This document shows positions 27,753 to 43,726 of a stretch of DNA of 64,000 bases, in pieces. Position 1 is the stretch's first letter. Each line of letters opens with the position of its first letter. This DNA is from Taklimakanibacter deserti (GTDB taxonomy: Bacteria; Pseudomonadota; Alphaproteobacteria; Rhizobiales; Aestuariivirgaceae): positions 1 to 64,000 of the forward strand of contig QORU01000023.1 in NCBI GenBank assembly GCA_003574785.1, read 5' to 3'. The notes beneath the pieces were generated by a model. It was not told where the DNA came from, ran no database searches, and saw only the letters and a list, made by a program, of their open reading frames with translations. The position numbers were made by a program, and so were the translations under genes.

Positions 27753-29063
27753 ATGAGACTCAAGGCACTGATTGCAGGAGCGATCCTGGCCTGCGCGGCG
27801 GCACTACCCGCCGCGGCCGCGGACACGGTTTATGTGCAGCTGTCGACCTATCGCACGGGGCCTTATGCGGGCTCCGGGATTCCGATCGCCAATGGCATGG
27901 CGGACTATCTCACCATGCTCAATGAGCGCGATGGTGGCGTCAATGGCGTGAAGATCGTCTTTGAGGAATGTGAAACCGGCTACGACACACAGAAGGGTGT
28001 CGAATGCTATGAGCAGGCGAAGGCGAAGAAGTCCCTCGTCTTCAATCCCTATTCGACGGGCATCACTTTGGCGGTGATCCCCAAAGCCTCGGTCGACAAG
28101 ATGCCGATCCTGTCCATGGCCTATGGTCTCTCCGCGTCCGCCGACGGCAAGGCGTTTCCCTGGGTGTTCAATCCGCCGCTGACCTATTGGGATGGCGCCT
28201 CCGGCGTCATCGAATATATTGCCGGACAGGAAGGCGGGCTGGAGAAGCTCAAGGGCAAGAAGATCGGCTTCATCTATCTCGATGCCGGCTATGGCAAGGA
28301 GCCGATACCGCTCTTCGAGCAATTCGCCGCGAAATATGGTTACACGCTGCTCAAATATCCGGTGCCCGGCAAGGAGATGCAGAACCAGTCGTCGCAATGG
28401 CTGAACATACGCCGCGACAAGCCCGACTATATGGTGATGTGGGGCTGGGGAGCGATGAATCCGACGGCCGTCAAGGAGGCGACCAAGATCCGTTTTCCGA
28501 TGGACAAGTTCATCGGCATCTGGTGGTCGGGCGGCGAGGATGATGCGCGGGGCGGCGGCGCCCAGGCGAAGGGATACACGACGCTCAATTTCCATGCCGT
28601 GGGCACCGATTTCCCGGTGATGCAGGATATCAAGAAATTCGTCGTCGATGCGGGCAAGAGCAAGGTCGACCCCGCCAAATTCGGCGAAAATCTCTACAAT
28701 CGTGGTGTCGTCAACTCGCTCTATATCGCCGAAGCGATCAAGGCCGCGCAGGAGAAGACCGGCAAGAAGGTCATCACGCCGGAAGACATGCGCGTCGGCA
28801 TCGAAAACCTGAATATCGACGATGCCCGCATCGATGCGATCGGCGCCAAGGGATATATCGCGCCGGTGAAGGTGACCTGCGACAATCACTCGGGCCATCA
28901 CAAGATGTATGTCCAGCGCTGGACCGGCGAGAAATGGGAGAAGGCCTCCGACTGGTTCGATCCGATGTCGGATGTGGTGAACCCGATGCTTCTCGCCGCG
29001 TCGAAGTCCTATACGGAAGCGAACAAGCCGTGGCCGGCGCGCAGCGAGCCTTGCGCGAATTGA
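27753..29063 (+). CDS. Branched-chain-type ABC transporter substrate-binding protein (LivK-like)
   Basis: 436 aa from the ATG at 27753, preceded by GGGAGGTGA. The signal peptide MRLKALIAGAILACAAALPA ends near AAA. The mature protein opens DTVYVQLSTYRTGPYAGSGI, typical of the Peripla_BP_6 proteins found with acyl-CoA ligase/ABC operons. Paired Cys residues (ECETGYDTQKGVEC) may form a disulfide in the periplasm. It is the fifth gene of the ligase-livGHM operon; a hairpin 8 bp after the stop may end the transcript. The ligand is probably a carboxylic acid, inferred from the ligase. Confidence 0.9.
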   Translation: MRLKALIAGAILACAAALPAAAADTVYVQLSTYRTGPYAGSGIPIANGMADYLTMLNERDGGVNGVKIVFEECETGYDTQKGVECYEQAKAKKSLVFNPYSTGITLAVIPKASVDKMPILSMAYGLSASADGKAFPWVFNPPLTYWDGASGVIEYIAGQEGGLEKLKGKKIGFIYLDAGYGKEPIPLFEQFAAKYGYTLLKYPVPGKEMQNQSSQWLNIRRDKPDYMVMWGWGAMNPTAVKEATKIRFPMDKFIGIWWSGGEDDARGGGAQAKGYTTLNFHAVGTDFPVMQDIKKFVVDAGKSKVDPAKFGENLYNRGVVNSLYIAEAIKAAQEKTGKKVITPEDMRVGIENLNIDDARIDAIGAKGYIAPVKVTCDNHSGHHKMYVQRWTGEKWEKASDWFDPMSDVVNPMLLAASKSYTEANKPWPARSEPCAN

Positions 29064-29071
29064 TGACGCTT

Positions 29072-29098
29072 GTCCCTCCCTCTGATCGGGGGAGGGAC
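29072..29098. terminator. Hairpin after the ligase-liv operon
   Basis: GTCCCTCCC (29072-29080) and GGGAGGGAC (29090-29098) form a 9-bp stem with a 9-base loop, directly after the LivK-like stop. There is no T-run, so it may be a weak terminator or an mRNA 3'-end stabiliser. It marks the left junction of the hyu-ami-urt cassette. Confidence 0.55.
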
Positions 29099-29148
29099 AC
29101 TTGGTGCATGAGAATTTGATTTTGTGCTTCGGACCGAGCGCGTCGCTC

Positions 29149-29177
29149 TTGACAAGAGAAGTGACGCGTTCAATACT
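29149..29177 (+). promoter_or_regulatory. Sigma70-type promoter for the hyuAB-amiCR operon
   Basis: TTGACA at 29149-29154 and AATACT at 29172-29177 are separated by exactly 17 bp. A start near 29184 would place the first ANTAR-type hexaloop hairpin at the very 5' end of the transcript. Confidence 0.7.
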
Positions 29178-29184
29178 TCTCTCA

Positions 29185-29255
29185 ACCTAGCAAAGACGCA
29201 GGTCATCGGTGAGCAATGAGGCTCGGCGCCCCTAAGAGGGCCCAGGGCCTTTTTT
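29185..29255 (+). promoter_or_regulatory. ANTAR-type dual-hexaloop antitermination leader upstream of hyuA
   Basis: Hairpin 1: ACCTAGC (29185-29191) and GCAGGT (29198-29203), with one bulged A, enclose the hexaloop AAAGAC. Hairpin 2: GAGC (29211-29214) and GCTC (29221-29224) enclose AATGAG. Both loops have A at position 1 and G at position 4, the defining pattern of RNA sites bound by ANTAR proteins. The 3' arm of hairpin 2 is also part of a GC-rich terminator (about 29219-29250) followed by six T (29250-29255), so the two folds exclude each other. AmiR, encoded in the same operon, is the obvious ligand. The 236 bases from here to hyuA show no gene. Confidence 0.82.
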
Positions 29256-29491
29256 ATTGCCGCAAGAGGTGGCATCGGGTTCGGCTCGTAAGCGGACACC
29301 GTCCCATATCCTTGTCTGCATCAATGATGATGCAGTGACTGCTGCCAATCCAATAGTGAATTTTCCGGGCGGGAGCAGATGCTTCTCCGAGCAATGCTGG
29401 GACCAAGCAGCCTTCCGTCTCAACTCGACAGAACAAACCGGCCGCAACCGTGGGCTAGTCCAATTGTTCGGCCAAGAGGGAGAATGACAGG

Positions 29492-31561
29492 ATGGACGAT
29501 CATTCGATACGCGACAAGCAAAGCGGCATCGGCTACCGTGTGGCCTGTGATGTCGGTGGCACATTCACGGATCTTTGCATCCTCGATGAGAAATCCGGAA
29601 AGATGCATGTCGCCAAGACGCCGACGACCGCCAATCCGATCGACGGCGTCATCAAGGGCATCGAGCTCGGCGGCGTGAAGCTCAAGGACATGGTGCTGTT
29701 CGCCCATGGCACCACCCTTGCCACGAATGCGCTCATCACCCGGCGCTTTCCGCCGGCGGTGATGGTGACGACGAAAGGCTTCAAGGACGTCATCGAAATT
29801 CGCCGCGGCACCCGCAACGATCTCTGGGACACGTACAAGGAAATGGCGACGCCCTATATAAGGCGGCGCGACAGGCTCGTCGTCACGGAGCGTATCGATT
29901 ATTCCGGCAAGGTCATTGCCGAGATCGACGAGGCCGAGGCGCTCGAAGTGGCGCGCGTCATCCGCAAGCGCGGCGTCAAGACGATCGCGATCTGCTTCGT
30001 CAATGCTTTCGCCAATCCCGCCAACGAGCAGCGGATGCGGGACATATTGGCGCGCGAGCTGCCGGATGCGTCGATCTCGCTGTCGAGCGACATCATGCCG
30101 GAAATCTTCGAGCATGAGCGGTTCTCGACGACAGTCGCCAACGCCGTCCTGGCGCCGGTTGCGGGCGACTATACCCGCGATCTCGCCAAGCGCCTGGCGG
30201 CGGGTGGCTTCAAGGAAGACGTGCTGCTCCTGCACTCGGGGGGCGGCGTGATGACGGCGAAGGCCTCCGAGAAGTTCCCGGCGCGCCTCGCCGCCTCCGG
30301 CATCGCCGCGGGCGCCATTGCCAGCCGCTTCGTGGCGCAGCTTTCCGGCTTCGAAAACTCGATCGGCCTCGATATGGGCGGCACCAGCACCGATGTCTGC
30401 CTGAGCGACAAGGGCGAATTGCCGGTCACCAAGGACTGGCATGTCGAATATGGCTATCCGATCTGCTTCCCGAGCATCGAGGTCCTGACCATCGGCGCGG
30501 GCGGCGGCTCGCTGGCCTGGATCGACAAGGCCGGATCGCTGCGCAATGGCCCGCAATCGGCCGGATCGCGGCCGGGTCCGGTCTGCTACAACAATGGCGG
30601 CACCGAGCCCACCAACTGCGATGCCAATGTGCTGCTTGGCCGCCTCGGCACCACGCTTGCCGGCGGCGCGATCGAGCTCAGGAAGGATCTCGCCGAGAAG
30701 GCCATTCACGACGTGATTGCCAAGCCGTTGGGCTTGACGACCGAGGAGGCTGCCTTGGCCATCCTCAAGGTCGCCAATGCCAATATGGCCGACGCGGTGC
30801 GTCTCGTCTCGATCCGCAAGGGCTATGATCCACGCGACTTCGCGCTGGTGGCCTTTGGCGGCGCCGGCGCGCTTCATGGCGCGGCACTCGCCAGGGACCT
30901 CGCCATCCCGACCGTCATCGTGCCCCCCAATCCGGGCGTCACATCGGCTTTGGGCTGCCTTCTGGTCGACATCACCCACGACATATCGCGCATGTATCTC
31001 AACAACATCAACAACGTGTCGCTCGCCGATCTCGATAACTCCTTCCGCGAGCTCGAGATGGAGGGCCGCGACAGGCTGTTGAACGAAGGCGTCACGGAAG
31101 ACCGCATGGTGTTCCAGCGCTTCATCGATATGCGTTATCTCGGACAGTGGCGTTCGATGTCGATCGCGGTGCCCACGCCGCTCGAGACGCTCGATGCCGC
31201 CGTGGCCAAGTTCCACGAGGACCACGGGCGCGAGCACAATTATTCGCGTCCCGGAGCGCCGGTCGAGGTCTACCGTCTGCAGGTGAAGGCGACGGGCCTG
31301 GTGAGGAAAGCCGAATTCACCAAGATGCCGCGGCGTTCGGGCAAGAAGCCGGCGCCCATCGATGAACGCCTGGTGCGTTTCGACGAGCGTCCCAAGCCGG
31401 TGAAGACGCAAGTCTTCGATCGTGCCGAGCTGATGCCTGGCGATGTGATCGAAGGGCCGGCGGTCATCGAGCAGCTCGATTCGACGACCCTGGTGCCGCC
31501 CGGACTCAAGGCCGAGGTGGACGACTACCTGACCATCATCATGCGCGTGCCGCTGGGCTAG
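29492..31561 (+). CDS. hyuA: Hydantoinase/5-oxoprolinase-family subunit A
   Basis: 689 aa, normal for HyuA. The N-terminal actin-like ATPase part opens YRVACDVGGTFTDLCILDEK, the phosphate-1 loop; HGTTLATNALITRR and SIGLDMGGTSTDVCLSDKG are the other hallmark blocks, and a beta-rich C-terminal domain ends near 680. With subunit B it performs ATP-dependent ring opening of a cyclic amide (hydantoin, oxoproline, lactam) or a related carboxylation, as in acetone or acetophenone carboxylases. AGAGGGAGA lies about ten bases before the ATG. An amide-sensor/antiterminator pair downstream favours an amide, imide or lactam substrate; this is inference. Confidence 0.88.
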   Translation: MDDHSIRDKQSGIGYRVACDVGGTFTDLCILDEKSGKMHVAKTPTTANPIDGVIKGIELGGVKLKDMVLFAHGTTLATNALITRRFPPAVMVTTKGFKDVIEIRRGTRNDLWDTYKEMATPYIRRRDRLVVTERIDYSGKVIAEIDEAEALEVARVIRKRGVKTIAICFVNAFANPANEQRMRDILARELPDASISLSSDIMPEIFEHERFSTTVANAVLAPVAGDYTRDLAKRLAAGGFKEDVLLLHSGGGVMTAKASEKFPARLAASGIAAGAIASRFVAQLSGFENSIGLDMGGTSTDVCLSDKGELPVTKDWHVEYGYPICFPSIEVLTIGAGGGSLAWIDKAGSLRNGPQSAGSRPGPVCYNNGGTEPTNCDANVLLGRLGTTLAGGAIELRKDLAEKAIHDVIAKPLGLTTEEAALAILKVANANMADAVRLVSIRKGYDPRDFALVAFGGAGALHGAALARDLAIPTVIVPPNPGVTSALGCLLVDITHDISRMYLNNINNVSLADLDNSFRELEMEGRDRLLNEGVTEDRMVFQRFIDMRYLGQWRSMSIAVPTPLETLDAAVAKFHEDHGREHNYSRPGAPVEVYRLQVKATGLVRKAEFTKMPRRSGKKPAPIDERLVRFDERPKPVKTQVFDRAELMPGDVIEGPAVIEQLDSTTLVPPGLKAEVDDYLTIIMRVPLG

Positions 31562-31612
31562 GGCCCAACGCCCTCATCACGATGGACCCAATCAAATTCT
31601 CAGGAGCCTAAA

Positions 31613-33628
31613 ATGGCAAAGAACTCTCAAGGTTTCTCGCTCGATCCCGTGACCTTCGAAGTGCTGAAGAACGCCTATGTGAATATCGTCGACCAGATGG
31701 CCGAGCAGATCTTCCGGACCTGCTATTCCTTCGTCATCTACTCGCGGGACTTTTCCTCGGCCCTCTGCGACACCAACGGCGACACGATCATGCAAGGCAA
31801 CGGCGATATCGCCGCGCATGTCGGCACGCTCCACTACACCGCCAAGGCGGTGATCAACAAGTTCAAGGGCGATATCCATCCCGGCGACATCTTCGTCGTG
31901 AATGACGTCTATCAGGGCGGCACGCATTTCAACGATACCCGCATCTTCGGGCCCATGTTCTACAAGGGCGAGCTTTTGGGCTTCGCGCAGGCCAACGGCC
32001 ATTGGGCCGATGTCGGCGGCGCGGTGCCGGGCTCCTTCAATGTGAGCGCGCTCGACCACATGGCCGAGGGACTGCGCATCACGCCGGTGCGCGTCTACAG
32101 CAAGGGCGTATATCTCTCGGACGTGGCCGAGCTCATCGCCCACAATACGCGTGCACCCGCCGACATCATCGGCGATCTCCAGGCGCAGGCGGAAGCCTGC
32201 CGGGTGGCCGAGCGCGAGGTGCAGCGCCTGTGCGACAAGTATGGCGTCGAGACGATCAAGACGTCCTTTGCCGAAGTGCAGGACTATGTCGAAACGCTGA
32301 CCCGGCAGCGGCTGCTCGAGCTGCCGAACGGGACCTGGGAAACCACCGATTATATCGATGTCGATCCCGTGAAGGGCGAGGGCATGATCCCCATCCATGT
32401 GAAGATGACGATCGACGGGGACAGCGTTCACTACGATCTCTCAGGCTCGCATCCCAACACGATCTCGACCTTCCTCAACTGCTGCTATGGCGGCGCCTTC
32501 GCGGCGATCGTCGCCGGCACCAAGATGCAATCGCCCGACATTCCGCTCAATTCCGGTTTCTACCGGGTGGTGACGGTGGAGCTCGGCGCCAAGGGATCGG
32601 TGATCAATGCCGACTGGCCGACGCCGGTCGCCGGCTTCTGCTCGGGGCCGTTCGAGAAGATCATGAATTCCGTCTTCGAGCTCTGGGCGGAGGTTCTGCC
32701 CGAGCGGGCGATGGCCTGCACCTTCAATCTCGAATATCTGCTGATCGGCGGACGCGATACCCGCCATGAAGGGCTGCCCTATTTCATGTGGTACGACTGG
32801 ATGGTCGGAGGCTGGGGTGCGCGCAACGGCAAGGACGGATGGGCCGCAACCGGGCCGGTCTTCGGCGTGCAACTCGGGACTCAGCCCTTCGAAGGGCAGG
32901 AGCGCCTGTCGCCCGTGCTGACCACAGGTCACGAGCTCCTGGTCGATTCCGGCGGCCCTGGCGAGTATCGCGGTGGCATGGGGGTCGAGAAGGGCGGCAC
33001 GCTCTATGCCTGCAAGCGGACCGTCGTCTCCTATTGCTGCGATCGCGAGCGCTCGATCACCTGGGGTCTGTGGGGCGGCCTGCCGTCGATCCCGCATGGC
33101 GTCTGGGTCAATCCCGGCAAGGCCAATGAGCGCTATCTCGGTTCGCTGTTCTCGGGCGTGCCGCTCAATCAGGGCGACACGGTCACCCGGCCCTCGGCCG
33201 GCGGTGGCGGTCTCGGCGATCCCCTGACGCGGGATGTCGATGCCGTGCTCGAAGACGTCATCGACGGCTATGTCTCGATCGAGCGGGCGCGCAAGGACTA
33301 TGGCGTGATCGTGCGGGAGGTCGATCCCGATCTGTGCAAATACGAGGTCGATCTCGATGCTACGGCGAAGGAGCGCGACCGTATCGATCGCGCCCGTGCC
33401 GGCTGGCTCGATGAGGATGCCGAGAAGATCGCCGAGCGATACCGCAAGAAGGATCTTTCGGCTCTCGACCTGATCCGGCAATATGGTGTCATCGTCGATT
33501 GGGGTTCAGGCAAGCTTTTGGAAAAGACGACCCATCAGTTTCGGGATATGCTGAAGCGGCGTACCGTTCCATATTGGAGCTTCCGGAAGCAATCCGCCCA
33601 AGGGAAGCCGACATTGAAAGTGGCTTGA
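31613..33628 (+). CDS. hyuB: Hydantoinase/5-oxoprolinase-family subunit B
   Basis: 671 aa. Residues to about 570 are the hydantoinase-B domain, with DPVTFEVLKNAYVNIVDQMA, the metal-site segments HVGTLHYT and NDVYQGGTHFNDT, and the Gly-rich block PSAGGGGLGDPLTRD. An extra C-terminal part of about 100 residues, charged and helical (KERDRIDRARAGWLDEDAEK), makes it longer than typical HyuB or CapB proteins (about 520-590 aa) and recalls the extended subunits of acetone/acetophenone carboxylases. It lies 51 bp after hyuA and pairs with it. No separate gamma subunit is seen nearby. Confidence 0.88.
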   Translation: MAKNSQGFSLDPVTFEVLKNAYVNIVDQMAEQIFRTCYSFVIYSRDFSSALCDTNGDTIMQGNGDIAAHVGTLHYTAKAVINKFKGDIHPGDIFVVNDVYQGGTHFNDTRIFGPMFYKGELLGFAQANGHWADVGGAVPGSFNVSALDHMAEGLRITPVRVYSKGVYLSDVAELIAHNTRAPADIIGDLQAQAEACRVAEREVQRLCDKYGVETIKTSFAEVQDYVETLTRQRLLELPNGTWETTDYIDVDPVKGEGMIPIHVKMTIDGDSVHYDLSGSHPNTISTFLNCCYGGAFAAIVAGTKMQSPDIPLNSGFYRVVTVELGAKGSVINADWPTPVAGFCSGPFEKIMNSVFELWAEVLPERAMACTFNLEYLLIGGRDTRHEGLPYFMWYDWMVGGWGARNGKDGWAATGPVFGVQLGTQPFEGQERLSPVLTTGHELLVDSGGPGEYRGGMGVEKGGTLYACKRTVVSYCCDRERSITWGLWGGLPSIPHGVWVNPGKANERYLGSLFSGVPLNQGDTVTRPSAGGGGLGDPLTRDVDAVLEDVIDGYVSIERARKDYGVIVREVDPDLCKYEVDLDATAKERDRIDRARAGWLDEDAEKIAERYRKKDLSALDLIRQYGVIVDWGSGKLLEKTTHQFRDMLKRRTVPYWSFRKQSAQGKPTLKVA

Positions 33629-33696
33629 TCATTCGATCGGCGCGGCACGCCGCAAGGCCGCCGCGCCGGTCAAGACCTGCAAGGTAGTCGCACAGC

Positions 33697-34893
33697 ATGG
33701 TTGACCGGCGACCGATAAGAGTAGGGGTTCTGTTCTCGACCACGGGCGTGGCGCGGACGACGGAAGCTTCCATGCTCAAGGCGACGCTGCATGCCATAGC
33801 CGAGGTGAACGAGCAGGGAGGCATAGACGGACGCGAGCTTGTCGCGGTCCATTATGATCCGGAAAGCCAGGCCGGGCATTTCAGCATCCTTGCCGACCGC
33901 CTGCTGGTCGAGGATGGCGTGCGCATCATCTTCGGCTGCTACATGTCGAGCGAGCGCAAGGCCGTTCTGCCGGTCGTCGAAAGGCGCAACGGCTTGCTCT
34001 TCTACCCGGCGCAATATGAGGGCTTCGAATATTCGCGCAACGTGATCCATACCGGCGCCGTTCCCAACCAGAACAGCATCCCGCTCGGCCACTACCTCCT
34101 CGAGCATGTCGGGCGCAGTTTCTTCATGGTCGGCTCCGACTATATCTGGCCGTGGGAATCCGACCGCATCATGAGCGACATGATCCGCCGTCAGGAAGGC
34201 CGGATCGTCGGTGAGCGCTATCTCAAGCTCGATGCGCCGGAATTCGAATACGCCGCCCTGGTCAAGGAGATCAAACGGGTTCGCCCCGACGGCATTTTCT
34301 GCAATTTCGTCGGCGACAGCATCGTGCATTTCTACCGGGCTTTTGCCGAAGCGGGGCTGGATCCGAAATCCATGCCGATCGCGAGCCTCACCACCAGCGA
34401 GGCCGACATCGAGGCGATGGGGGCCGAGGCAGGCACCGGGCACATCACGGCGGCGACTTATTTTGAATCGATCGACTCGGCCGCCAACCGGGCCATGCTG
34501 GCACGGTATCGGGCGCGCTTCGGCGCGGCGGAACGGACCCATATGTGCTGGGAGTCGGCCTATTTCCAGGTGCATCTCGCGGCCAATGCCATGCGGCTCG
34601 CGGCCAGCGACGACGTCCATCGGATCCGCTCGGCGCTGAATGCCTTCGAGTTCAAGGCGCCGCAGGGACGCGTCCAGATCGATCCCGAAAATGGCCACAC
34701 CTATCTGTGGTCGCGGATCGGCCGCGTCGATGAGGCCGGCCAGTTCACGGTGCTGTTCGAAAGCGCCAGCGCCATAAAGCCCGATCCCTATCTGGTGAGC
34801 TTCGACCCCTCCGACTGGAGTTCGCAGTCGACGATCACCTCGTTGAATGGAGTATTGAAGGCGGGAAAAGGTACGCCCGCCGAAGTAGATTGA
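33697..34893 (+). CDS. amiC: AmiC-like cytoplasmic amide sensor (periplasmic-binding-protein fold)
   Basis: 398 aa, close to Pseudomonas AmiC (about 385). It starts RPIRVGVLFSTTGVARTTEA with no signal peptide, so it stays in the cytoplasm although its fold is that of type I periplasmic binding proteins. FYPAQYEGFEYSRNVIHTGA and SDYIWPWESDRIM are AmiC/UrtA-type ligand-cleft segments. In the known amidase system AmiC sequesters the antiterminator AmiR until a short amide binds. Here it is followed after 30 bp by an ANTAR protein gene and preceded by hyuAB, so the same switch is expected to control hydantoinase/lactamase-type genes. Confidence 0.88.
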   Translation: MVDRRPIRVGVLFSTTGVARTTEASMLKATLHAIAEVNEQGGIDGRELVAVHYDPESQAGHFSILADRLLVEDGVRIIFGCYMSSERKAVLPVVERRNGLLFYPAQYEGFEYSRNVIHTGAVPNQNSIPLGHYLLEHVGRSFFMVGSDYIWPWESDRIMSDMIRRQEGRIVGERYLKLDAPEFEYAALVKEIKRVRPDGIFCNFVGDSIVHFYRAFAEAGLDPKSMPIASLTTSEADIEAMGAEAGTGHITAATYFESIDSAANRAMLARYRARFGAAERTHMCWESAYFQVHLAANAMRLAASDDVHRIRSALNAFEFKAPQGRVQIDPENGHTYLWSRIGRVDEAGQFTVLFESASAIKPDPYLVSFDPSDWSSQSTITSLNGVLKAGKGTPAEVD

Positions 34894-34923
34894 TAACGAA
34901 AAGAAAAGTCGCCGAGGAAGCCC

Positions 34924-35667
34924 ATGGGTGAGACCAAGCAAAGCAAGATCGTTCAGTTCTTGCGGGCAGACGACAAGACTGACCGCGAATCTGAACAGCC
35001 GAACAAGAGTGCCGCACGGCCGTCGGGTCCGGCGCGGGACGCCGAGCCGCGCAAGATTTCCGATCTGATCCGCAATGTCAGGAAACTGCGTATCCTGCTC
35101 CTGCATCCGGGCGGGCCCGAAGGCAAGGACCTGCTCGAGCACCTCAATCGCATCGGCTGCCAGGTGAGCATTTCTTGGCCGCCGCCGGATGCGGTTCCGG
35201 CGGGAACGGATGTCGTGCTCATCGCGGTGCGCGAGATCGTGGAGGGCAATGTGCCGTTCCATTGGGATGTGGACAAGCCGGTCGCCTCGCTCATCGCCAT
35301 CGTCGATTACGAAAATCCATTGATCGTGGAGCGTGTGCTGAGGCTGGGCGCGCAAGCCGTGATCGGCCTGCCCCTGCAGCCTTTGGGCATACTCGCCAAT
35401 CTGCTGCTCAGCGCCACGAATTTTGACCAAACGAGAAAATTACGGCTTCGGATCGACCGGCTGGCTTCGCGCCTCAAAGCCAATCGCGATGTGAGCACCG
35501 CCATGTCGATCATCATGCAAACGCATGGTGTGGCGGAGCGTGAAGCCTACGAGTTGCTGCGTTCGCAATCGATGACGCGCCGGACGACGATCGAAAGCAC
35601 GGCCGCCGCGATCATTCAGGCGAGCGATGTCTTGAGAATGGGCTTGACACACAAGCCGCGTTCCTGA
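34924..35667 (+). CDS. amiR: AmiR-like ANTAR-domain transcription antiterminator
   Basis: 247 aa. It has a charged, probably disordered N-terminal extension (about 1-50) absent from the 196-aa Pseudomonas AmiR, then a pseudo-receiver domain (LRILLLHPGGPEGKDLLEHL onward) without the phosphorylated Asp pocket, a coiled-coil (RKLRLRIDRLASRLKANRDV) and the three-helix ANTAR domain ending the protein (AMSIIMQTHGVAEREAYELL, SMTRRTTIES). It should bind dual-hexaloop RNA and prevent termination; two such RNAs are found, upstream of hyuA and just after this gene. GAGGAAG precedes the ATG. Activity is presumably gated by AmiC. Confidence 0.9.
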   Translation: MGETKQSKIVQFLRADDKTDRESEQPNKSAARPSGPARDAEPRKISDLIRNVRKLRILLLHPGGPEGKDLLEHLNRIGCQVSISWPPPDAVPAGTDVVLIAVREIVEGNVPFHWDVDKPVASLIAIVDYENPLIVERVLRLGAQAVIGLPLQPLGILANLLLSATNFDQTRKLRLRIDRLASRLKANRDVSTAMSIIMQTHGVAEREAYELLRSQSMTRRTTIESTAAAIIQASDVLRMGLTHKPRS

Positions 35668-35689
35668 GAAAGTTTCTGATCGGCCTTTT

Positions 35690-35761
35690 TTCGCAAAGAT
35701 GCGAAGCGGCCCTATTGAGCAAAGACGCTCATGCCCGGTGACCCGGGCAGGGGCGTTTTTT
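35690..35761 (+). promoter_or_regulatory. ANTAR-type dual-hexaloop antitermination leader upstream of the urt-like operon
   Basis: Hairpin 1: TTCGC (35690-35694) and GCGAA (35701-35705) enclose the hexaloop AAAGAT. Hairpin 2: GAGC (35717-35720) and GCTC (35727-35730) enclose AAAGAC. Both loops show A1 and G4. A terminator follows: TGCCCGG-tgac-CCGGGCA (35732-35749) extended by ACGC (35725-35728) with GCGT (35753-35756), then six T (35756-35761). The ACGC arm overlaps hairpin 2, so forming hairpin 2 breaks the terminator. It starts 23 bp after the amiR stop and precedes the transporter genes by 137 bases. A TTGACA at 35644 has no good -10, so it may act as an internal attenuator. Confidence 0.85.
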
Positions 35762-35897
35762 ATGCCCCCGACAACCAAGATCTTCACGGTTCATGTTGAT
35801 CGCGCCGACGGCGGTAATACGCATCGGCCGGGATCACAGCCAAGAAGACAGACGTGCCAGATGGGAATGAAACGTCAACCTCGGGAGGACCTCAACA

Positions 35898-37133
35898 ATG
35901 AGGATCAATCGCAGACAGTTCTTCAGGACCACAACCGGCGCCCTGGGCTTCGCCAGCATGCCCATGCTGCTCAAATCGGCGGGCATCGCCGCCGAGGAGC
36001 CCATCCGCATCGCCAATATCCTCGACAAGACCGGTGGGCTCAACATCTACAGCTTGAAGCAGATCAAGGCGATCGCCTTGGCGGTGGACGAGCTCAACAA
36101 GGCGGGCGGGCTGCTCGGCCGGCCGATCGAGCTCGTCTTTTATGACTCCCAGTCCAATAACCAGCTCAATTCGCAATATATGGCGCAGGCTCTGGTCAAG
36201 GACAAAGCGGCGGCTGTTTTTGCCGGCGTGACGAGCTCATCGCGCGAGGTCATGCGTCCGGTGGTGAGAAAATTCCGCGGGCTCTTCTTCTACAATTCGA
36301 TGTATGAGGGCGGCGTTTGCGACCGTCGCCATGTCTGCATCGCCCAGGTTCCGGCGCAGCAGCTTTCGCCGCTCGTCCCGCGCGTCGTCAAGACCTATGG
36401 CAAGAAGTGTTATATTCTGGGCGCCGATTACATCTATCCGCATACGACGGCCAAGTGGATCCAGAAATATACGCGCGAGGCGGGCGGCGAGGATATCGGC
36501 GTGGAGTTCTTCCCGCTCGATGTCTCCAACTTCGCACCGGCCCTGGCCCGTATCCAGGCGGCAAAGCCCGATGTCGTCTGGTCCATCCTCGTCGGCAGCG
36601 CGCATAATGCCTTCTATCGTCAGTATGAGTCGACCATCGGCAAGGCCAAGACGCCGCTTGCCTCCTGCATGTTCGGCATCGGGCGCGAGCAGACCTATCT
36701 GTCGGCCCAGGAAGCGGCCGGCATCATGAATGCGACGCCCTTCCATGACGAGCTCCCGAGCGAGAAGGCCCAGGAATTCGTCCGCAAGTTCAAGGAATAT
36801 TCGGGCGAGCAGGACTATGTGGGCGATTACGCCGAATATGGCTATCGCGGCGTGAACATCTGGGCCAATGCGGTGAAGAAAGCCGGCGATCCATCGCCCG
36901 ATGCGGTGATCGCGGCGCTCGACGGCGTCCAGTTCGAGGCGCCGGGCGGGCTGGTGACGATCGACGGGCAGACCAATCACGCGGTCATGGACATCCACCT
37001 CGTCAAGACGAATGACAAGCAGGGGTGGGACCATCTGGAGACGTTCAAGCAGCTGCAGCCGTCCGACACCCAGGCCGTCTGCGATCTGCGCAAGAACCCG
37101 GACGACAACCAGCAATATACGCTGAGCCTCTAG
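35898..37133 (+). CDS. Urea/short-chain-amide ABC transporter substrate-binding protein (UrtA/FmdD-like)
   Basis: 411 aa. The N-terminus INRRQFFRTTTGALGFASMP has a twin-arginine motif and hydrophobic core, so export may be by Tat. The mature region opens IRIANILDKTGGLNIYSLKQ, and FFYNSMYEGGVCDRRHVC and GADYIYPHTTAKWIQKY are UrtA/FmdD-like cleft segments, related to the AmiC paralogue encoded just upstream. Sensor and transporter may therefore recognise the same ligand. It is the first gene after an ANTAR-responsive leader and starts a five-gene transporter operon. Confidence 0.88.
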   Translation: MRINRRQFFRTTTGALGFASMPMLLKSAGIAAEEPIRIANILDKTGGLNIYSLKQIKAIALAVDELNKAGGLLGRPIELVFYDSQSNNQLNSQYMAQALVKDKAAAVFAGVTSSSREVMRPVVRKFRGLFFYNSMYEGGVCDRRHVCIAQVPAQQLSPLVPRVVKTYGKKCYILGADYIYPHTTAKWIQKYTREAGGEDIGVEFFPLDVSNFAPALARIQAAKPDVVWSILVGSAHNAFYRQYESTIGKAKTPLASCMFGIGREQTYLSAQEAAGIMNATPFHDELPSEKAQEFVRKFKEYSGEQDYVGDYAEYGYRGVNIWANAVKKAGDPSPDAVIAALDGVQFEAPGGLVTIDGQTNHAVMDIHLVKTNDKQGWDHLETFKQLQPSDTQAVCDLRKNPDDNQQYTLSL

Positions 37134-37228
37134 CCCGGCATGACGTGACAGGCCGGCATCCGCGGATCGGCGCGGCGGATGCCGGCACCCATAACGCTCA
37201 CTCAAGGAGAAGGTCAGGACAGAGCGAC

Positions 37229-38089
37229 ATGGTCGGCATCATCATCGTGCTTTACCAAATCCTCTTTGCGGTCAGCTTGTTCATCCTGATCAGCCTCGGG
37301 CTGGCGATCATCTTCGGCATGATGCGGGTGATCAATCTGGCTCAGGGCGAGTTCATCATGCTGGGCGCCTATGCCTGCCTGATCTTCACCCGGCTCGAGA
37401 TCAATTTCTGGCTCGCGGCATTGCTGTCCGGCCTGGTGGTCGGGCTCTTCGGCATCATCGTCGAGCGCTGCCTCATCCGTTTTCTCTATGGCCGCATCAT
37501 GGACACGCTGCTTGCGACATGGGGCTTGAGCCTGTTGATGATCGGTCTCGTCACAACGATTTTCGGACCGCAGGAAGCGGGTGTCGAAGTGAGCCTTGGC
37601 AAGCTCGACGTGGGCGAATTCTCGGTCTCGGTCTACAATCTCGTCCTGATCGCCGCGGCCATGGGCCTCCTGGCGCTCACTTACGCGCTCTGGCGCTACA
37701 CGAAAATCGGACTCGTCGTGCGCGGCACGATGCAGAATCCGGACATGGCCGCGGCCCTCGGCGTCAACACGGATCGATGCTACATGCTGACCTTCGGCTT
37801 CGGCTCGGCGATCACCGGCCTTGCCGGTGCGCTCATCGCGCCGCTCGTCGGCAACCAGCCGACAATGGGCGCATTCTATGTGGCCAAGGCCTTCATCACT
37901 GTGATCAGCGGCGGTGCGGCGCCTCTTACCGGAACGCTCTTCGCATCCGGCGTCTTCGGCACCGTCGATGGGGTCATTTCCTATGCGAGCACGCAGGTCG
38001 TGGGCGAGATCAGCGTCCTTCTGGTGGCCATTGTCCTCTTGCGGCTCTTGCCCACCGGCATCACTGGCCGATTAGGCGGAGGAGTGTGA
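37229..38089 (+). CDS. Urea/amide-type ABC transporter permease (UrtB-like)
   Basis: 286 aa from the ATG at 37229, with AGGAC upstream; the longer frame lies in intergenic sequence. LFILISLGLAIIFGMMRVIN-LAQGEF is the LivH/UrtB signature. GLVVRGTMQNPDMAAALGVN is the coupling loop with the UrtB-type QNPDMA motif. It forms the channel with the following permease, which starts two bases after its stop region. Confidence 0.9.
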   Translation: MVGIIIVLYQILFAVSLFILISLGLAIIFGMMRVINLAQGEFIMLGAYACLIFTRLEINFWLAALLSGLVVGLFGIIVERCLIRFLYGRIMDTLLATWGLSLLMIGLVTTIFGPQEAGVEVSLGKLDVGEFSVSVYNLVLIAAAMGLLALTYALWRYTKIGLVVRGTMQNPDMAAALGVNTDRCYMLTFGFGSAITGLAGALIAPLVGNQPTMGAFYVAKAFITVISGGAAPLTGTLFASGVFGTVDGVISYASTQVVGEISVLLVAIVLLRLLPTGITGRLGGGV

Positions 38090-38091
38090 CG

Positions 38092-39168
38092 ATGCGGCTG
38101 ATTTCGGCTGAAGATTGCGAGGCGCCGGTACCGCTCTGGTGGGCGTTGGTCGCGGCGGCGGCGGTGATCGGTTTCGCCCTTCCTTCGTTCGTCGGCCTCG
38201 ATGTCGTGATGAGCACCTCGATCATCTTCGTCTATGCGATCCTGACGCTGAGCATGAGCTATCTCTGGGGCTATTGCGGGATGCTGAGCTTCGGGCAGAC
38301 CGCGATGTATGGCGTCGGTGGCTATGCCTATGCCGTCATCGCCTTGAATTCGGGCAACACGACCATAGCGGTCTTTGCGGCCGTCTTCCTCGGCTGTCTT
38401 TTCGCGCTCGTCATCGGCTATTTCATGATCTATGGGCGGATCAGCAAGATCTATTTCACCGTCATAACGCTCGTGATCACTGTCGTCCTGGAAAAGGCGA
38501 TCCGCGCCACGTCGGATGAGCGTTTTACGATCGGTTCCGTTCCCTTGCGCGGTCAGAATGGAATATCCAATGTGCCCGACCTGCAATTTCCATGGGACCC
38601 GTCGCAGACGCTGTTTCTGGACGGTGTCTATTACGTGGCTTTGGCGGCACTGCTTGCCGTTTTCATCGGGCTTCGGCTGCTGCTGACGACGCATTTCGGC
38701 CGCGTGCTCATGGGAATCCGCGATAATGAGCGTCGCTCCGAGCTTCTGGGCTACGACACGCGCAAATATCAGCTGGGCGCCTTTGTGTTGTGCGGCGGCA
38801 TCGCGGCATTGGCCGGGGTGCTCTATGGCGTCTGGGGAAATTTCGTGGCGCCCGAGATGATGAATCTCAACTCCGCTGCGAATATCGTCATCTACGCGAT
38901 CGTCGGCGGACGCTCGACGCTCGTCGGGCCGATCGCCGGCACGGCGATCATCCAGTATCTGACGAGCTGGCTCGGAACCGCCGGGGTGGGGCAGGTGACC
39001 GTGATCCTCGGCACCGTGCTCATCGTCTTCGTGATGCTGTTCCCGCGCGGTATATTGCCGACACTCGGCGACCTCATCGCGCAAGTATGGCGGTTTGCGC
39101 TCACTGGCCGTGATCGCGCCAAGCTTCCCGGCGCGCGCAAGACATCTGACAGGTGGCGCAATGCCTGA
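38092..39168 (+). CDS. Urea/amide-type ABC transporter permease (UrtC-like)
   Basis: 358 aa from the ATG at 38092, after GGAGG. LSMSYLWGYCGMLSFGQTAM is the UrtC/LivM helix with the characteristic WGYCG found in urea and amide systems; FGRVLMGIRDNERRSELLGY is the coupling loop. About ten helices are visible. The stop lies eight bases inside the following ATPase gene. Confidence 0.9.
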   Translation: MRLISAEDCEAPVPLWWALVAAAAVIGFALPSFVGLDVVMSTSIIFVYAILTLSMSYLWGYCGMLSFGQTAMYGVGGYAYAVIALNSGNTTIAVFAAVFLGCLFALVIGYFMIYGRISKIYFTVITLVITVVLEKAIRATSDERFTIGSVPLRGQNGISNVPDLQFPWDPSQTLFLDGVYYVALAALLAVFIGLRLLLTTHFGRVLMGIRDNERRSELLGYDTRKYQLGAFVLCGGIAALAGVLYGVWGNFVAPEMMNLNSAANIVIYAIVGGRSTLVGPIAGTAIIQYLTSWLGTAGVGQVTVILGTVLIVFVMLFPRGILPTLGDLIAQVWRFALTGRDRAKLPGARKTSDRWRNA

Positions 39169-39889
39169 GTCCGAAATCCTGATCGAGACCATCGATCTCT
39201 CCAAGCGCTTTGGCGGCGTCACCGCCATCGACGGCGTATCCTTGCAGATCAGGCGCGGCGAATTGCGCTGCCTCATCGGACCGAATGGCGCCGGCAAGAG
39301 CACGTTCTTCAAGATGCTGACGGCGCAGCAGAAGCCGTCATCGGGTCGCATCCTGCTCGCCGGCACGGATATCACCGACTGGCAGGCGCATCGCGTGAGC
39401 GGGGCCGGCGTCGGGATCAAGAATCAGGTGCCGGACGTCTTCGACAATCTGACGGCGCGGGAGAATGTCTGGCTGGCGGCGAGCTACTTCAGGAAGACGG
39501 CCCGACCGAAGGTGCTGGTCGACGACGCACTGGGCAGCCTCGGCATAACCGCGCTGGCCGGCCGGCGCGTCGGCGAGCTTGCGCACGGCCAGAGACAGTG
39601 GGTCGAGCTGGCGATGGTGCTGGCGCGCGATCCTTCGGTGGTGCTGCTCGACGAGCCGACCGCCGGGATGAGCGACGAAGAGACCGCCAAGACCGCCGAG
39701 CTCATACTCGAGCTCAACAAGTCGCGGACGATCGTCGTCGTCGAGCACGATATGCAGTTCATCCGCAAGATCGCCAAGATGGTGACCGTCTTCCATCAGG
39801 GCAAGATCCTCGCGGAAGACACGATGGCCAATATTCAGAAGAACAGGATGGTACGCGATGTCTATCTCGGCAGATCGGCCGCTGCTTGA
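39161..39889 (+). CDS. Urea/amide-type ABC transporter ATP-binding protein (UrtD-like)
   Basis: 242 aa from the ATG at 39161, which overlaps the permease stop. Walker A is GPNGAGKSTFF. The signature LAHGQRQWVELAMVLARDPS resembles the UrtD-type HGQ-QW motif rather than a classical LSGGQ. Walker B is VVLLDEPTAGM. It powers uptake together with the UrtE-like ATPase, which overlaps its 3' end by 32 bases. Confidence 0.92.
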   Translation: MPESEILIETIDLSKRFGGVTAIDGVSLQIRRGELRCLIGPNGAGKSTFFKMLTAQQKPSSGRILLAGTDITDWQAHRVSGAGVGIKNQVPDVFDNLTARENVWLAASYFRKTARPKVLVDDALGSLGITALAGRRVGELAHGQRQWVELAMVLARDPSVVLLDEPTAGMSDEETAKTAELILELNKSRTIVVVEHDMQFIRKIAKMVTVFHQGKILAEDTMANIQKNRMVRDVYLGRSAAA

Positions 39890-40574
39890 GATCCATGGGC
39901 TGAGATCGGGCTATGGCCGGATCCGGATTCTCGACGGGCTCGAGCTTTCGCTCGGCGAGGGCTGCATTCTCGGCATCCTGGGCCACAATGGCATGGGCAA
40001 GACGACGCTTCTGCGGACGCTGATCGGGCAGGTGAAAGCGAGCGAGGGCAGCATCCTTTTGGCCGGCAACGACCTCATGAAGCGCAAGCCCTATGAGCGG
40101 GCGCGCCTGGGATTGGGCTATGTGCCGCAGCGCCGTGAGATCTTTCCCGACTTGTCGGCGCTGGAAAACCTCAGGATGGGAATGACCCGGCATGAGGATG
40201 ATCGGGTTCTTGACGAGGTGCTGGGCTATTTCCCCACCCTGGGTTCGCTGCTCGATCGCCCCGGAAAAGGATTGTCCGGCGGCCAGCAGCAGCTGCTCGC
40301 CCTGGCGCGCTGTTTGGTCGGAAGGCCAAGGCTTCTGATGCTCGATGAGCCCACGGAAGGCATACAGCCTTCGATCATCGAGGAGATCGCAAGCCTCCTG
40401 CCTGTCTTGCGGGACAAGTTCCGGCTCACGATACTTCTGGTGGAACAGGACCTGCAGTTCATTACGTCCGTCGCGAGCGAGGTCGCGATCATCCAAAAAG
40501 GCCGGATCGTGAGGCATCTCGATCCGCAGGAGCTTTCCAATCACGATGTCATAAACGCGTATCTGGGCGTCTGA
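39858..40574 (+). CDS. Urea/amide-type ABC transporter ATP-binding protein (UrtE-like)
   Basis: 238 aa. Walker A is GHNGMGKTTLL, the signature LSGGQQQLLALARCL, and Walker B runs into LMLDEPTEGIQPSIIEEIAS; the TEGIQPSII stretch is characteristic of UrtE-type ATPases. It ends with the family tail DVINAYLGV. It completes the five-gene transporter. The 32-base overlap with the UrtD-like gene makes translational coupling likely. An alpha/beta-hydrolase-fold gene follows after 15 bases. Confidence 0.92.
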   Translation: MSISADRPLLEIHGLRSGYGRIRILDGLELSLGEGCILGILGHNGMGKTTLLRTLIGQVKASEGSILLAGNDLMKRKPYERARLGLGYVPQRREIFPDLSALENLRMGMTRHEDDRVLDEVLGYFPTLGSLLDRPGKGLSGGQQQLLALARCLVGRPRLLMLDEPTEGIQPSIIEEIASLLPVLRDKFRLTILLVEQDLQFITSVASEVAIIQKGRIVRHLDPQELSNHDVINAYLGV

Positions 40575-40589
40575 ACCGGATCTCTGCTC

Positions 40590-41477
40590 ATGTTCATCAG
40601 AACGTCCGACGGATTGGATCTGCAGTTCAGGGAGGTTGGCCGGGGACCGACCATCGTCTTTTCCCATGAGTTTGGCGGAAACCATGCATCATGGGAAAAG
40701 CAGATCGAACGCCTGGCGACGACGCATCGGTGCATCGCCTACACGGCGCGCGGATTCTCGCCATCGACGACATCCGGCCAGGAGACGTATTACGGGCGCC
40801 ACATGCTCGTGCGGGATCTCGTCGAGCTTGTGGAGAATCTGAAGCTGGAGCGCTTCCATCTCGTTGGCGCCGGAATGGGCGCGGCCACAAGCCTGCTCGC
40901 GGCGGAGCTCTTGGGCGACAAGGTAAAGACGATCACGCTTGCCGGTTGCCCGGCGGGTCCGCTTTCCCAATTGGAGCTGTTCGAACATAGGAGCAGGATC
41001 CGGCAAGTGCTGCTGGCGATGGAACAGAAAGACCCGGCCTTGGCGAGCTGGACATTGTGGAATGATCGGCCCGATGAGCGCTTGATCGGGGAGAAGGCAG
41101 CCTGGTGGCGAAAGTATCGCGGCATATTCGAGCAACACGACACTGCGGGCCTGGCCTTGACCCTCAAACGGGTTGAATGGGATGTTCCGGACTTCAAGCA
41201 TCTGGAGCGGCGCCTGAGGCACATAGAGGCGCCGACCTTATTGGTTTCGGGAGACGATGACCGCCATGCTGCGCATATGACGGCTGCGCATCTGGCCAGG
41301 GTCTTGCCCTTTGCCAAGCTCGTGAAGCTGTCCCGTTGCGGCCGGCTGGTCCATTTTGAGCAGCCGGCGGTCTTCAACAAGCTATTGTGGCAGCATGTCA
41401 GGACTCTCGAACTGAGGGAGAATGGGCAAAGGCACTATTCGAAGCTGGAGCTGAGCCTGAATTTGGAGAGTTCCTGA
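40590..41477 (+). CDS. Alpha/beta-hydrolase-fold protein lacking the catalytic Ser and His
   Basis: 295 aa with the alpha/beta-hydrolase layout: oxyanion-side GPTIVFSHEFGGNHASW, a nucleophile elbow, a cap region (about 130-200) and the acid-bearing segment LLVSGDDDRH. The elbow reads LVGAGMGAAT, so Gly95 stands where the GxSxG serine should be. The C-terminal motif reads RCGRLVHFEQP, where Arg replaces the usual catalytic His of G-H-x-x-H-x-E-x-P. Two of three triad residues are therefore missing. It may be a binding or scaffold protein, or a cofactor-independent enzyme using other residues. It is the last gene of the cassette, 15 bp after the UrtE-like gene. Confidence 0.8.
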   Translation: MFIRTSDGLDLQFREVGRGPTIVFSHEFGGNHASWEKQIERLATTHRCIAYTARGFSPSTTSGQETYYGRHMLVRDLVELVENLKLERFHLVGAGMGAATSLLAAELLGDKVKTITLAGCPAGPLSQLELFEHRSRIRQVLLAMEQKDPALASWTLWNDRPDERLIGEKAAWWRKYRGIFEQHDTAGLALTLKRVEWDVPDFKHLERRLRHIEAPTLLVSGDDDRHAAHMTAAHLARVLPFAKLVKLSRCGRLVHFEQPAVFNKLLWQHVRTLELRENGQRHYSKLELSLNLESS

Positions 41478-41590
41478 CCCGGTCGCGCGAGGTCACGGAA
41501 GGGCGCCGGCCGGGCCCCCGGATGCTCTACTTTCGAAGCGTATGAAAGCCGTCACGGGTATGATAGAGGGCGAAGAGCCTTGGGCATCAC

Positions 41591-42427
41591 GTGACCGGCA
41601 TGAATAAGGCAGCGGCCGCTGAGACAGATCCCATCCTTGTCGTGAACAATATCGAGGTGATCTATGATCACGTGATATTGGTCCTGAAGGGCGTGTCGCT
41701 GAGCGTGCCCAAGCATGGCATCGTGGCGCTGCTCGGCGCCAATGGCGCCGGCAAGACCACGACGCTGAAGGCGATCTCCAATCTTTTGAGAGCCGAGCGC
41801 GGCGAAGTCACCAAGGGCGCGATCCTGTTCAAGGGCGAAGAGGTGCATGATCTTTCGCCCAACGAGCTGGTGCGGCGCGGCTGCATCCAGGTGATGGAAG
41901 GACGCCATTGCTTTGCTCACCTCTCGGTCGAGGAAAATCTCCTGACCGGCGCCTTCACCCGCAAGGACGGCACGGCCGCGATCAGGCGCGATCTCGATCT
42001 CGTCTATTCCTATTTCCCGCGCCTCAAGGAGAGACGCGGCTCGCAAGCGGGCTACATATCGGGCGGCGAGCAGCAGATGACCGCGATCGGGCGCGCCTTG
42101 ATGTCGAGGCCCGACATGATCCTCCTGGACGAGCCCTCGATGGGTCTTGCCCCGCAATTGGTGGAAGAGATCTTCGTCATCTTGCGCGAGCTCAACAAGG
42201 CGGAAGGCGTCTCCTTCCTGCTCGCCGAGCAGAACACCCATATCGCTCTCAATTATGCGACCCATGGCTACATCCTCGAATCCGGGCGCATCGTGCTCGA
42301 CGGCAAGGCGGGCGAGCTCAAGGAGAACGAGGATGTGAAGGAGTTCTATCTGGGTGTGGGCGGGGAAGGGCGGCGCTCCTTCCGGACGGTCAAGAGCTAC
42401 AAGCGACGCAAAAGGTGGCTCGCGTGA
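41591..42427 (+). CDS. Branched-chain-type ABC transporter ATP-binding protein (LivF-like) with basic tail
   Basis: 278 aa from GTG at 41591 (an in-frame ATG at 41600 is an alternative). Walker A is GANGAGKTTTL, the signature ISGGEQQMTAIGRALM, and Walker B is MILLDEPSMGLAP. A 20-residue basic C-terminal tail (SFRTVKSYKRRKRWLA) extends beyond ordinary LivF proteins. It is followed by a PaaK-like gene with a GTGA overlap. This gene pair is what the ligase-livGHMK operon at 22.9-29.1 kb lacks, so it is probably its displaced 3' part. Confidence 0.9.
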   Translation: MTGMNKAAAAETDPILVVNNIEVIYDHVILVLKGVSLSVPKHGIVALLGANGAGKTTTLKAISNLLRAERGEVTKGAILFKGEEVHDLSPNELVRRGCIQVMEGRHCFAHLSVEENLLTGAFTRKDGTAAIRRDLDLVYSYFPRLKERRGSQAGYISGGEQQMTAIGRALMSRPDMILLDEPSMGLAPQLVEEIFVILRELNKAEGVSFLLAEQNTHIALNYATHGYILESGRIVLDGKAGELKENEDVKEFYLGVGGEGRRSFRTVKSYKRRKRWLA

Positions 42428-43656
42428 ATGATCATTATGACAGCCGCGAAACGCAAGGCCGAGAGGAGCGTGAGCGCGCTCTGTTCGAGCAATTGCCGGA
42501 GGTCATCGCGGTGGCGCTCGCGAGCCCGGGCTGGCGCCAGCATCTGGGCAAGATCGATGCCAAGGAAATCACCTCACGCGCGGCGCTGGCGGATCTGCCG
42601 GTCCTGCGCAAGTCGGCGCTTCCCGCACTTCAGAAAGCGGCACCGCCCTTTGGCGGCTTCTCGGTTGTCCCGGTGCCGCAACTCGGCCGCCTCTTCACCT
42701 CGCCTGGTCCCATTTATGAGGGCGAGATGGCGTCGGGCGATGAGTGGCGCTATGCCCGCGTCCTCTTCGCTGCAGGGTTCCGGCCGGGCGACATCGTCCT
42801 CAATTGCTTCAGCTACCATATGACACCGGGTGGCTTCATCCTCGATTCGGGCGCCCGGGCCCTGGGCTGTCCCGTCATCCCGGCGGGGCCTGGCCATAGC
42901 GAGCAGGTCGTCGAGGTCATCGCGCATCTGAGGCCCGTCGCTTATTGCGGCACGCCGGATTTCCTCAAGATCCTCCTCGACAAGGCCGAGGAGCTTGGCC
43001 GCGACGTTTCCTCATTGCGCAAGGCTTCCGTCTCGGGCGCGGCCTTCCCGCCGAGCCTCCAGGCCGAGGTCAAGGCGCGTGGAATTGACGCGTATCAAGC
43101 CTATGCGACGGCCGATCTCGGCGGCATCGCTTATGAGACGGAGGCGCACGAAGGCCTCGTCCTGAACGAAGACATCATCCTCGAGATCCTGCGTCCGGGC
43201 ACGGGCGATCCTGTGGCCGAGGGCGAGGTCGGCGAGATCGCGGTGACGCTGATCGACCGTCATCGCCCGCTCATCCGCTTCGCCCTCGGCGACATGACGG
43301 CGCTGCTGCCCGGTGTCAGCGCCTGCGGACGCAGCAATCAGCGCATCAAGGGCTGGATGGGCCGCGCCGACCAGACTGCCAAAGTGCGCGGCATGTTCGT
43401 GCGGCCCGAGCAGATCGCCGAGATCGCCAAGCGGCATCCGGAGGTGAAGCGCCTGCGCCTGGTGATCGGGCGCGCGCAGGAGCAGGACACGGTCGTTCTC
43501 AAGGCCGAAACCGCATCGGCCTCGGCGGCTTTGCAAAAGGCGCTGGCGGAGACCGCGGCGGGCATCACCAATCTCAGATGCGATGTTGCGCTCTGCGCAA
43601 CGGGCGGCTTGCCCAATGACGGCAAGGTGATAGCTGATGAGCGGCCTCTATCCTGA
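42424..43656 (+). CDS. Phenylacetate-CoA-ligase-like (PaaK-family) protein without P-loop
   Basis: 410 aa from GTG at 42424, overlapping the LivF stop (GTGA). The PaaK/AMP-binding fold is seen in YAYATADLGGIAYE-type, GEIAVTLIDRHRPLIRFALG and MGRADQTAKVRGMFVRPEQI segments, the last being the family's hinge and C-domain entry. The ATP phosphate loop SSGTTG is replaced by LFTSPGPIYEG (about 90-100), so adenylation as in PaaK is doubtful. It might be a thioester-handling or binding partner of the ABC system or act with the acyl-CoA ligase at 22.9 kb. No transmembrane segments are evident. Confidence 0.82.
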   Translation: MNDHYDSRETQGREERERALFEQLPEVIAVALASPGWRQHLGKIDAKEITSRAALADLPVLRKSALPALQKAAPPFGGFSVVPVPQLGRLFTSPGPIYEGEMASGDEWRYARVLFAAGFRPGDIVLNCFSYHMTPGGFILDSGARALGCPVIPAGPGHSEQVVEVIAHLRPVAYCGTPDFLKILLDKAEELGRDVSSLRKASVSGAAFPPSLQAEVKARGIDAYQAYATADLGGIAYETEAHEGLVLNEDIILEILRPGTGDPVAEGEVGEIAVTLIDRHRPLIRFALGDMTALLPGVSACGRSNQRIKGWMGRADQTAKVRGMFVRPEQIAEIAKRHPEVKRLRLVIGRAQEQDTVVLKAETASASAALQKALAETAAGITNLRCDVALCATGGLPNDGKVIADERPLS

Positions 43657-43726
43657 CGGTTGCGGGAGGCCGCGGTTCAGTTAAAGATGGCGGGAAACCG
43701 AAGACCATCCAAAGGGAGCGAGACAC

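Follow-up and report, generated by a model that had tools for sequence, protein, structure and literature searches.

The 64,000-nucleotide stretch of Taklimakanibacter deserti DNA analysed here (contig QORU01000023.1, positions 1 to 64,000; hereafter the window) carries an amiC-amiR-like sensor and regulator pair between hydantoinase-like and urt-like genes. The short sequence between amiR and the urtA-like gene raises the question of whether a second ANTAR leader stands there, and whether one sensor pair could by this means act on the transporter genes as well as on the catabolic genes.

Two hexaloop leaders at the amiC-amiR locus

The genes of the locus are as follows.

29492-31561, + strand: hyuA-like gene (Hydantoinase_A; PDB relatives N-methylhydantoinase and 5-oxoprolinase)
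31613-33628, + strand: hyuB-like gene (Hydantoinase_B)
33697-34893, + strand: amiC-like sensor gene (Peripla_BP_5; PDB 1pea, AmiC, E 7.9e-83)
34924-35667, + strand: amiR-like regulator gene (AmiR_N + ANTAR; PDB 1qo0_D, AmiR, E 5.1e-24)
35898-37133, + strand: urtA-like gene for a substrate-binding protein
37232-40574, + strand: urtB-, urtC-, urtD- and urtE-like genes (best NCBIfam models are Urt)
40590-41477, + strand: alpha/beta hydrolase gene, at the 3' end of the cassette described below

The amiR product combines an AmiR_N pseudo-receiver with an ANTAR domain (PF21332, E 4.7e-30; PF03861, E 1.8e-11). The matches of the transporter genes to the Urt models of NCBIfam all lie below the curated cut-offs, and the transported substrate therefore need not be urea. 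A long GC-rich inverted repeat without a T run was seen by eye at about 37150-37185, in the gap between urtA and urtB, and is perhaps an mRNA-stabilising stem. Two leaders were delimited, the first (29186-29255) upstream of hyuAB and the second (35690-35761) behind amiR.

29149-29177, + strand: candidate promoter of leader 1, TTGACA-17-AATACT, 10/12 in a consensus promoter scan
29186-29202, + strand: hairpin 1 of leader 1, CCT-a-GC / AAAGAC / GC-AGG with one bulged A (sequence, strict scan)
29211-29224, + strand: hairpin 2 of leader 1, GAGC-AATGAG-GCTC
29218-29255, + strand: intrinsic terminator of leader 1 with six T, overlapping hairpin 2 (sequence and pairing energies)
35690-35705, + strand: hairpin 1 of leader 2, TTCGC-AAAGAT-GCGAA, loop A1/G4 (sequence, strict scan, covariation in relatives)
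35716-35731, + strand: hairpin 2 of leader 2, TGAGC-AAAGAC-GCTCA, loop A1/G4
35725-35761, + strand: intrinsic terminator of leader 2 with six T (sequence and pairing energies)

The initial annotation had described leader 2 as two hairpins followed by a terminator whose outer ACGC arm overlaps hairpin 2 and which ends in six T, and this architecture was verified base by base. The loop AAAGAT of hairpin 1 was read from the sequence at 35695-35700, and the loop AAAGAC of hairpin 2 occupies 35721-35726. Bases 35725-35730 are common to hairpin 2 and the 5' arm of the terminator, in which they form the outer pairs A35725-T35756, C35726-G35755, G35727-C35754, C35728-G35753, T35729-G35752 and C35730-G35751; inside these lie one A.G mismatch and then 7 pairs (35732-35738 with 35743-35749), and the six-T run is 35756-35761. 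An intrinsic terminator that shares bases with hairpin 2 is a feature of ANTAR-target RNA, and leader 2 has one. The amiR stop ends at 35667, 22 nt before hairpin 1, and the urtA-like gene begins at 35898, which agrees with the placement of the leader between the two genes. The loop rule said to be common to the two leaders of the window, A at position 1 and G at position 4, likewise holds for both hairpin loops of each. When compared with the eut 13-mer AGCAANGRRGCUY (from PMC3369931), hairpin 2 of leader 2 fits 12/13 positions and hairpin 2 of leader 1 fits 13/13. Judged by its sequence, leader 2 is an ANTAR-type leader and belongs to the ANTAR-target family tied to the AmiC-AmiR pair.

A strict scanner (both loops A1/G4, stems of at least 4 bp, a terminator overlapping hairpin 2, and a T run) was applied to both strands of the window and returned exactly two matches, with loop starts at 29192 and 35695, which are leaders 1 and 2. 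Dinucleotide shuffles of the window (n=60) gave 9 strict matches in total, and at least two matches arose in 1 of the 60 shuffles; because the strict rule was set after the leaders had been seen, the comparative tests weigh more than the shuffles. Rfam gave no ANTAR-type match at the gathering score anywhere in the window, and no match at E<=1 within 28900-36200. On the minus strand elsewhere in the window, a speF leader (4923-5062) comes immediately after an Rfam ar45 sRNA (5072-5204), and the open reading frame behind that leader (4824-3691, minus strand) is of the pyridoxal-dependent decarboxylase kind; its best NCBIfam models are lysA and others, all below cut-off, and an ornithine decarboxylase would fit the speF leader.

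Recurrence and covariation at related loci

The comparison covered 71 amiR loci, made up of 27 named genome loci, 7 plasmid loci taken out of 174 matching plasmid records, 36 order-level genome stretches (38 of 397 order-level genomes gave a match) and the window; nine closer AmiR relatives (proteins, AmiR 69-98%) lie outside the leader comparison. An amiC relative stands immediately 5' of amiR in all 71 loci, the window included. Strict matches were found before amiC in 7/71 loci (8 matches, two of which are registers of one element) and after amiR in 4/71 (one of them, in L101, probably in the wrong register), and 2,271,871 other bases contained 6, leader 1 among them; both places thus carry such elements well above background. 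By a looser score, which takes the best element per 430-nt segment, 24/71 post-amiR and 11/68 pre-amiC segments exceeded the 99th percentile of 426 controls, and the other 47 and 57, respectively, fell below that threshold; in 11 of the 24 passing post-amiR segments the register chosen by the scanner differs from the register read by eye.

Aminobacter loci, with AmiR 56-58% identical, have a leader before amiC in 5/5 cases and a second leader between amiR and hyuA in 2/5; both leaders are present at L003 and L004, the loci of Aminobacter niigataensis and A. aganoensis. This double layout in a minority of the loci, together with the second leader before hyuA in the window and the adjoining AmiR_N+ANTAR and AmiC-like genes, bears out in part the initial reading of an amiR-coupled ANTAR leader. 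The remaining three Aminobacter loci contain, by eye, a post-amiR element with the hairpin-2 loop AAAAAA and a similar element with the loop AAAAAG before a divergent hyuA. The scanner returned no element in L085, the closest locus outside Aminobacter (AmiR 48%); behind its amiR a TCGC-AAAGAT-GCGA hairpin with the same loop as leader 2 is followed by five T, and no second hairpin was found there. Another locus, L089 (G056, 1-16501), carries two divergent amiC-amiR pairs, one followed by hyuAB-urtA-urtB-urtD and the other by urtA-urtB-urtD-urtE, which are the same parts in another order.

A pattern built on these amiCR loci, which combines hairpin 2 with the T run, was searched for in 7 whole genomes and gave 8 distinct sites in 6 of them, all at amiCR loci, with 0 sites away from amiCR loci and 0 in the reversed control. 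Since the strict pattern is confined in this way, the leader element looks like a local switch rather than a scattered regulon, for this pattern in these 7 genomes. The same result bears on which protein reads the element. A real ANTAR target could be bound mainly by another ANTAR protein, e.g. NasT, and would then be set by nitrogen status and not by the AmiC ligand, and 3-5 ANTAR domains are present in each of six related genomes; however, the restriction of the pattern to amiCR loci, and the amiC-amiR pair that adjoins the leader, make such a reader very improbable.

For covariation, 33 elements were collected and placed in a fixed register, and 28 distinct elements were left after removal of duplicates (L094, L099 and L120, for example, have identical sequences); the 33 are not independent of one another, since their hairpin-1 motif was part of the selection and many share a genus with others in the set. 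In the 28 distinct elements, 86.4% of hairpin-1 cells are paired, compared to a mean of 54.3 and a maximum of 65.0 with shuffled partners and at most 55.0 in slid registers. For hairpin 2 the value is 88.4%, and shuffling yields up to 86.6; its stem is nearly invariant and so says little in either direction. Compensatory stem changes, for which the initial annotation had proposed to compare both leaders in relatives, are thus seen in hairpin 1, while hairpin 2 hardly varies. Loop-to-loop spacing is 21-27 nt throughout the 33 collected elements. These data also bear on whether leader 2 simply terminates the amiR transcript constitutively, its hexaloop hairpins being due to chance. Intrinsic terminators after genes are common, and the shuffles do yield single strict matches; however, the element recurs at the same place in relatives, hairpin 1 covaries, the loop spacing stays at 21-27 nt, and leader 1 matches it, and chance is for these reasons a highly unlikely source of the hairpins.

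The loops themselves differ in how strictly they are kept. Hairpin-1 loops have A1 and G4 in 28/28 elements, partly through selection, and hairpin-2 loops have G4 in 26/28, with A, U and G at position 1 in 11, 11 and 6 elements, respectively. The hairpin-2 rule is possibly relaxed at position 1, as read from these sequences. At L012-L014, L016, L018, L019, L023, L025, L026, L054 and L091-L095, the post-amiR hairpin-2 loop has U or G instead of A at position 1 and retains G4 and A6. The published crystal structure shows G4 alone in base-specific contact (PMC8934654). The hairpin-2 loops of the relatives, which mostly retain G4 but vary at A1, form a natural series that fits such a G4-only contact and in which the role of A1 could be tested. 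The AmiR residue that matches EutV M172 is Met in 40/71 loci and Thr in 31/71. That this residue sets the hairpin-2 loop type was considered and rejected because U1 loops occur with both M and T, in a comparison whose search for loops picked up hairpin 1 as well at many loci.

Proposed attenuation and the source of the leader 2 transcript

It is very likely that leader 2 is an AmiR-read ANTAR attenuator for urtABCDE-abh, and leader 1 likewise for hyuAB-amiC-amiR. Binding, the response to inducer, antitermination and promoter use are what we infer from the observed elements, their rarity and recurrence, the covariation of hairpin 1, and the AmiC and AmiR neighbours. Without inducer, AmiC would hold AmiR, the terminator would form, and transcription would end near 35761. 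Once inducer is present, the released AmiR would bind both hexaloop hairpins of leader 2, and hairpin 2, once held by AmiR, would remove the 5' arm of the terminator and let the polymerase proceed into urtABCDE-abh; leader 1 would act alike on hyuAB-amiC-amiR. A single sensor pair would in this manner switch on breakdown and uptake jointly, and would also raise its own level. The EutV RNA-contact residues E160, Y164 and M172 (PMC8934654) are kept as E, Y and M in AmiR, whereas EutV R142 and K147 are replaced by N and T, in an alignment read by eye for which the offset between chain and paper numbering was inferred.

Hairpin 1 together with the full terminator is predicted at -29.5 kcal/mol, and hairpins 1 and 2 with the inner hairpin at -25.6 kcal/mol, a difference of about 4 kcal/mol that AmiR binding would need to cover. 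The minimum-energy fold of leader 2, at -35.2 kcal/mol, retains both hairpins, and in it the linker is paired to the 3' arm of the terminator in a three-way junction; this linker-to-terminator fold is the minimum in 1/33 leaders, namely leader 2. Because leader 2 alone prefers the junction, a default OFF state is less certain for it than for the other leaders. Accepted at face value, the junction would mean that leader 2 is not OFF by default, the linker-terminator pairing being a protein-free antiterminator or an alternative terminator that AmiR only tunes. Equilibrium folds, however, poorly describe folding during transcription, the junction still ends in a stem beside the T run, and the fold is absent from leader 1 and from the collected relatives; we regard a leader 2 of this kind as improbable and retain the AmiR-read attenuator.

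The transcript that enters leader 2 could come from amiR read-through, from a promoter with its -35 in the 3' end of amiR, or from both.

35644-35649, + strand: TTGACA, candidate -35 of a leader 2 promoter, inside the 3' end of amiR

This TTGACA is among 5 copies on the window's + strand and lies 51 nt upstream of the hairpin-1 loop, within the spread of distances at which TTGAC is found in relatives. TTGAC occurs 30-75 nt upstream of the hairpin-1 loop in 17/33 elements, compared to 2.2% of random control positions, and the post-amiR leaders of L003 and L004 are directly preceded by TTGACA-17-TACCAA. As TTGAC recurs before such leaders, the urt genes may form a separate AmiR-controlled transcript, and it is plausible that leader 2 has its own promoter instead of only gating amiR read-through. 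The initial annotation had supposed that the position after amiR would make AmiR gate its own downstream genes; a gate on its own transcript by way of amiR read-through is not established. The same ANTAR leader could nevertheless lie inside one operon with no promoter of its own, in which case the urt genes would need leader 1 and then leader 2, as gates in series. The 22 nt between the amiR stop and hairpin 1 favour such an arrangement, as does the consensus promoter scan of 27000-46900, in which the only + strand site is the one before leader 1; the TTGACA at 35644 is missing from that list because the -10 that follows it is weak (3/6). Its typical distance from the loop and the promoter-like sequences at L003 and L004 speak against gates in series, which we consider a serious but somewhat less than even prospect.

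Genomic setting and relation to known systems

The locus as a whole lies within a liv gene cluster.

29064-41590, + strand: putative inserted cassette, 12.5 kb, between livK (ends 29063) and a livF-like gene (starts 41591)
L165, 7339-7434: livK and livF adjacent in a relative

The cassette holds hyuAB, amiCR, the urt-like genes, the hydrolase gene and both leaders. Genome G252, which shares 85% DNA identity over 6.2 kb upstream, has a livK-livF gap of 94 bases and no amiR relative at E<=1e-25. Among the 30 best livK loci, livF lies at most 1.2 kb downstream of livK in 27 (two of these at about 1.18 kb), and it was not found in the flank examined in the remaining 3. Because livK and livF are adjacent in relatives and G252 has no amiR relative, insertion between these two genes is the most likely origin of the 12.5-kb block that carries both leaders. 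No exact repeat of more than 8 bases is shared by the two junctions, and inspection of the cassette genes, without a systematic search, brought no mobility gene to notice. The 3' junction (41300-41800) showed no site resembling a terminator or a promoter, and the distal liv genes may accordingly rely on transcripts that pass through leader 2. We tentatively raise, as a rather unlikely extension, that a plug-in catabolic cassette split the liv operon and could have placed the distal livF-like gene, a gene for a PaaK-like CoA-ligase and perhaps the next liv genes under AmiR via leader 2.

The amiE locus of Pseudomonas aeruginosa has one leader, whereas this locus has two, with a hydantoinase/oxoprolinase-like enzyme in place of an aliphatic amidase and with urt-type genes behind. 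An AmiC-like sensor, an AmiR_N+ANTAR regulator and a leader before the enzyme genes are common to this locus and the P. aeruginosa amidase operon (PMC3369931; PDB 1pea, 1qo0). Dual A1/G4 hexaloop hairpins, the second of which overlaps an intrinsic terminator, are shared with the EutV leaders of Enterococcus faecalis, as is the presence of several leaders within one locus (PMC3369931, PMC5821096). In the eut locus the leaders are interspersed before eutP, eutG, eutS and eutA (PMC3369931, PMC5821096), and according to a review constitutive promoters accompany three of the four terminator regions (PMC5821096). Unlike in eut, AmiR is paired here with AmiC and involves no phosphorylation, the genes are of hydantoinase and urt type, and leader 2 stands directly after the regulator gene.

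A plasmid operon of Klebsiella sp. KOS9 similarly combines amiC and amiR with genes for amide breakdown and an ABC transporter, and its AmiR is described as an antiterminator (PMC13209695). Unlike the present locus, the KOS9 amiE-amiC-amiR operon encodes an aliphatic amidase; the word ANTAR is absent from the main text of that article, in which no description of a leader was found for the operon (PMC13209695). Predicted ANTAR regulons include several leaders per organism, with urea transporters among the genes behind them, and Desulfotomaculum acetoxidans has 13 leaders or more, spread over six transcription units (PMC3369931). Multiple leaders and urea transporters are thus shared with this locus, as predictions from other organisms, and the present cluster was not seen among the predicted regulons that were consulted (PMC3369931). 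No description of the cluster with its leaders was found among the top-ranked literature matches, in a search outside which subscription papers mostly lay. Several leaders per locus, adjoining promoters and urea transporters behind leaders are already in print (PMC3369931, PMC5821096), as is an amiE-amiC-amiR operon with transporter genes (PMC13209695). This locus stands apart in its combination of genes, in a leader that immediately follows amiR and may have a promoter within that gene, and in the probable insertion.

Taken together, this compact locus appears to connect a single small-molecule sensor pair with the genes for breakdown as well as those for uptake by means of a repeated RNA switch, and the insertion between livK and livF suggests that a regulated block of this kind can move as a unit.
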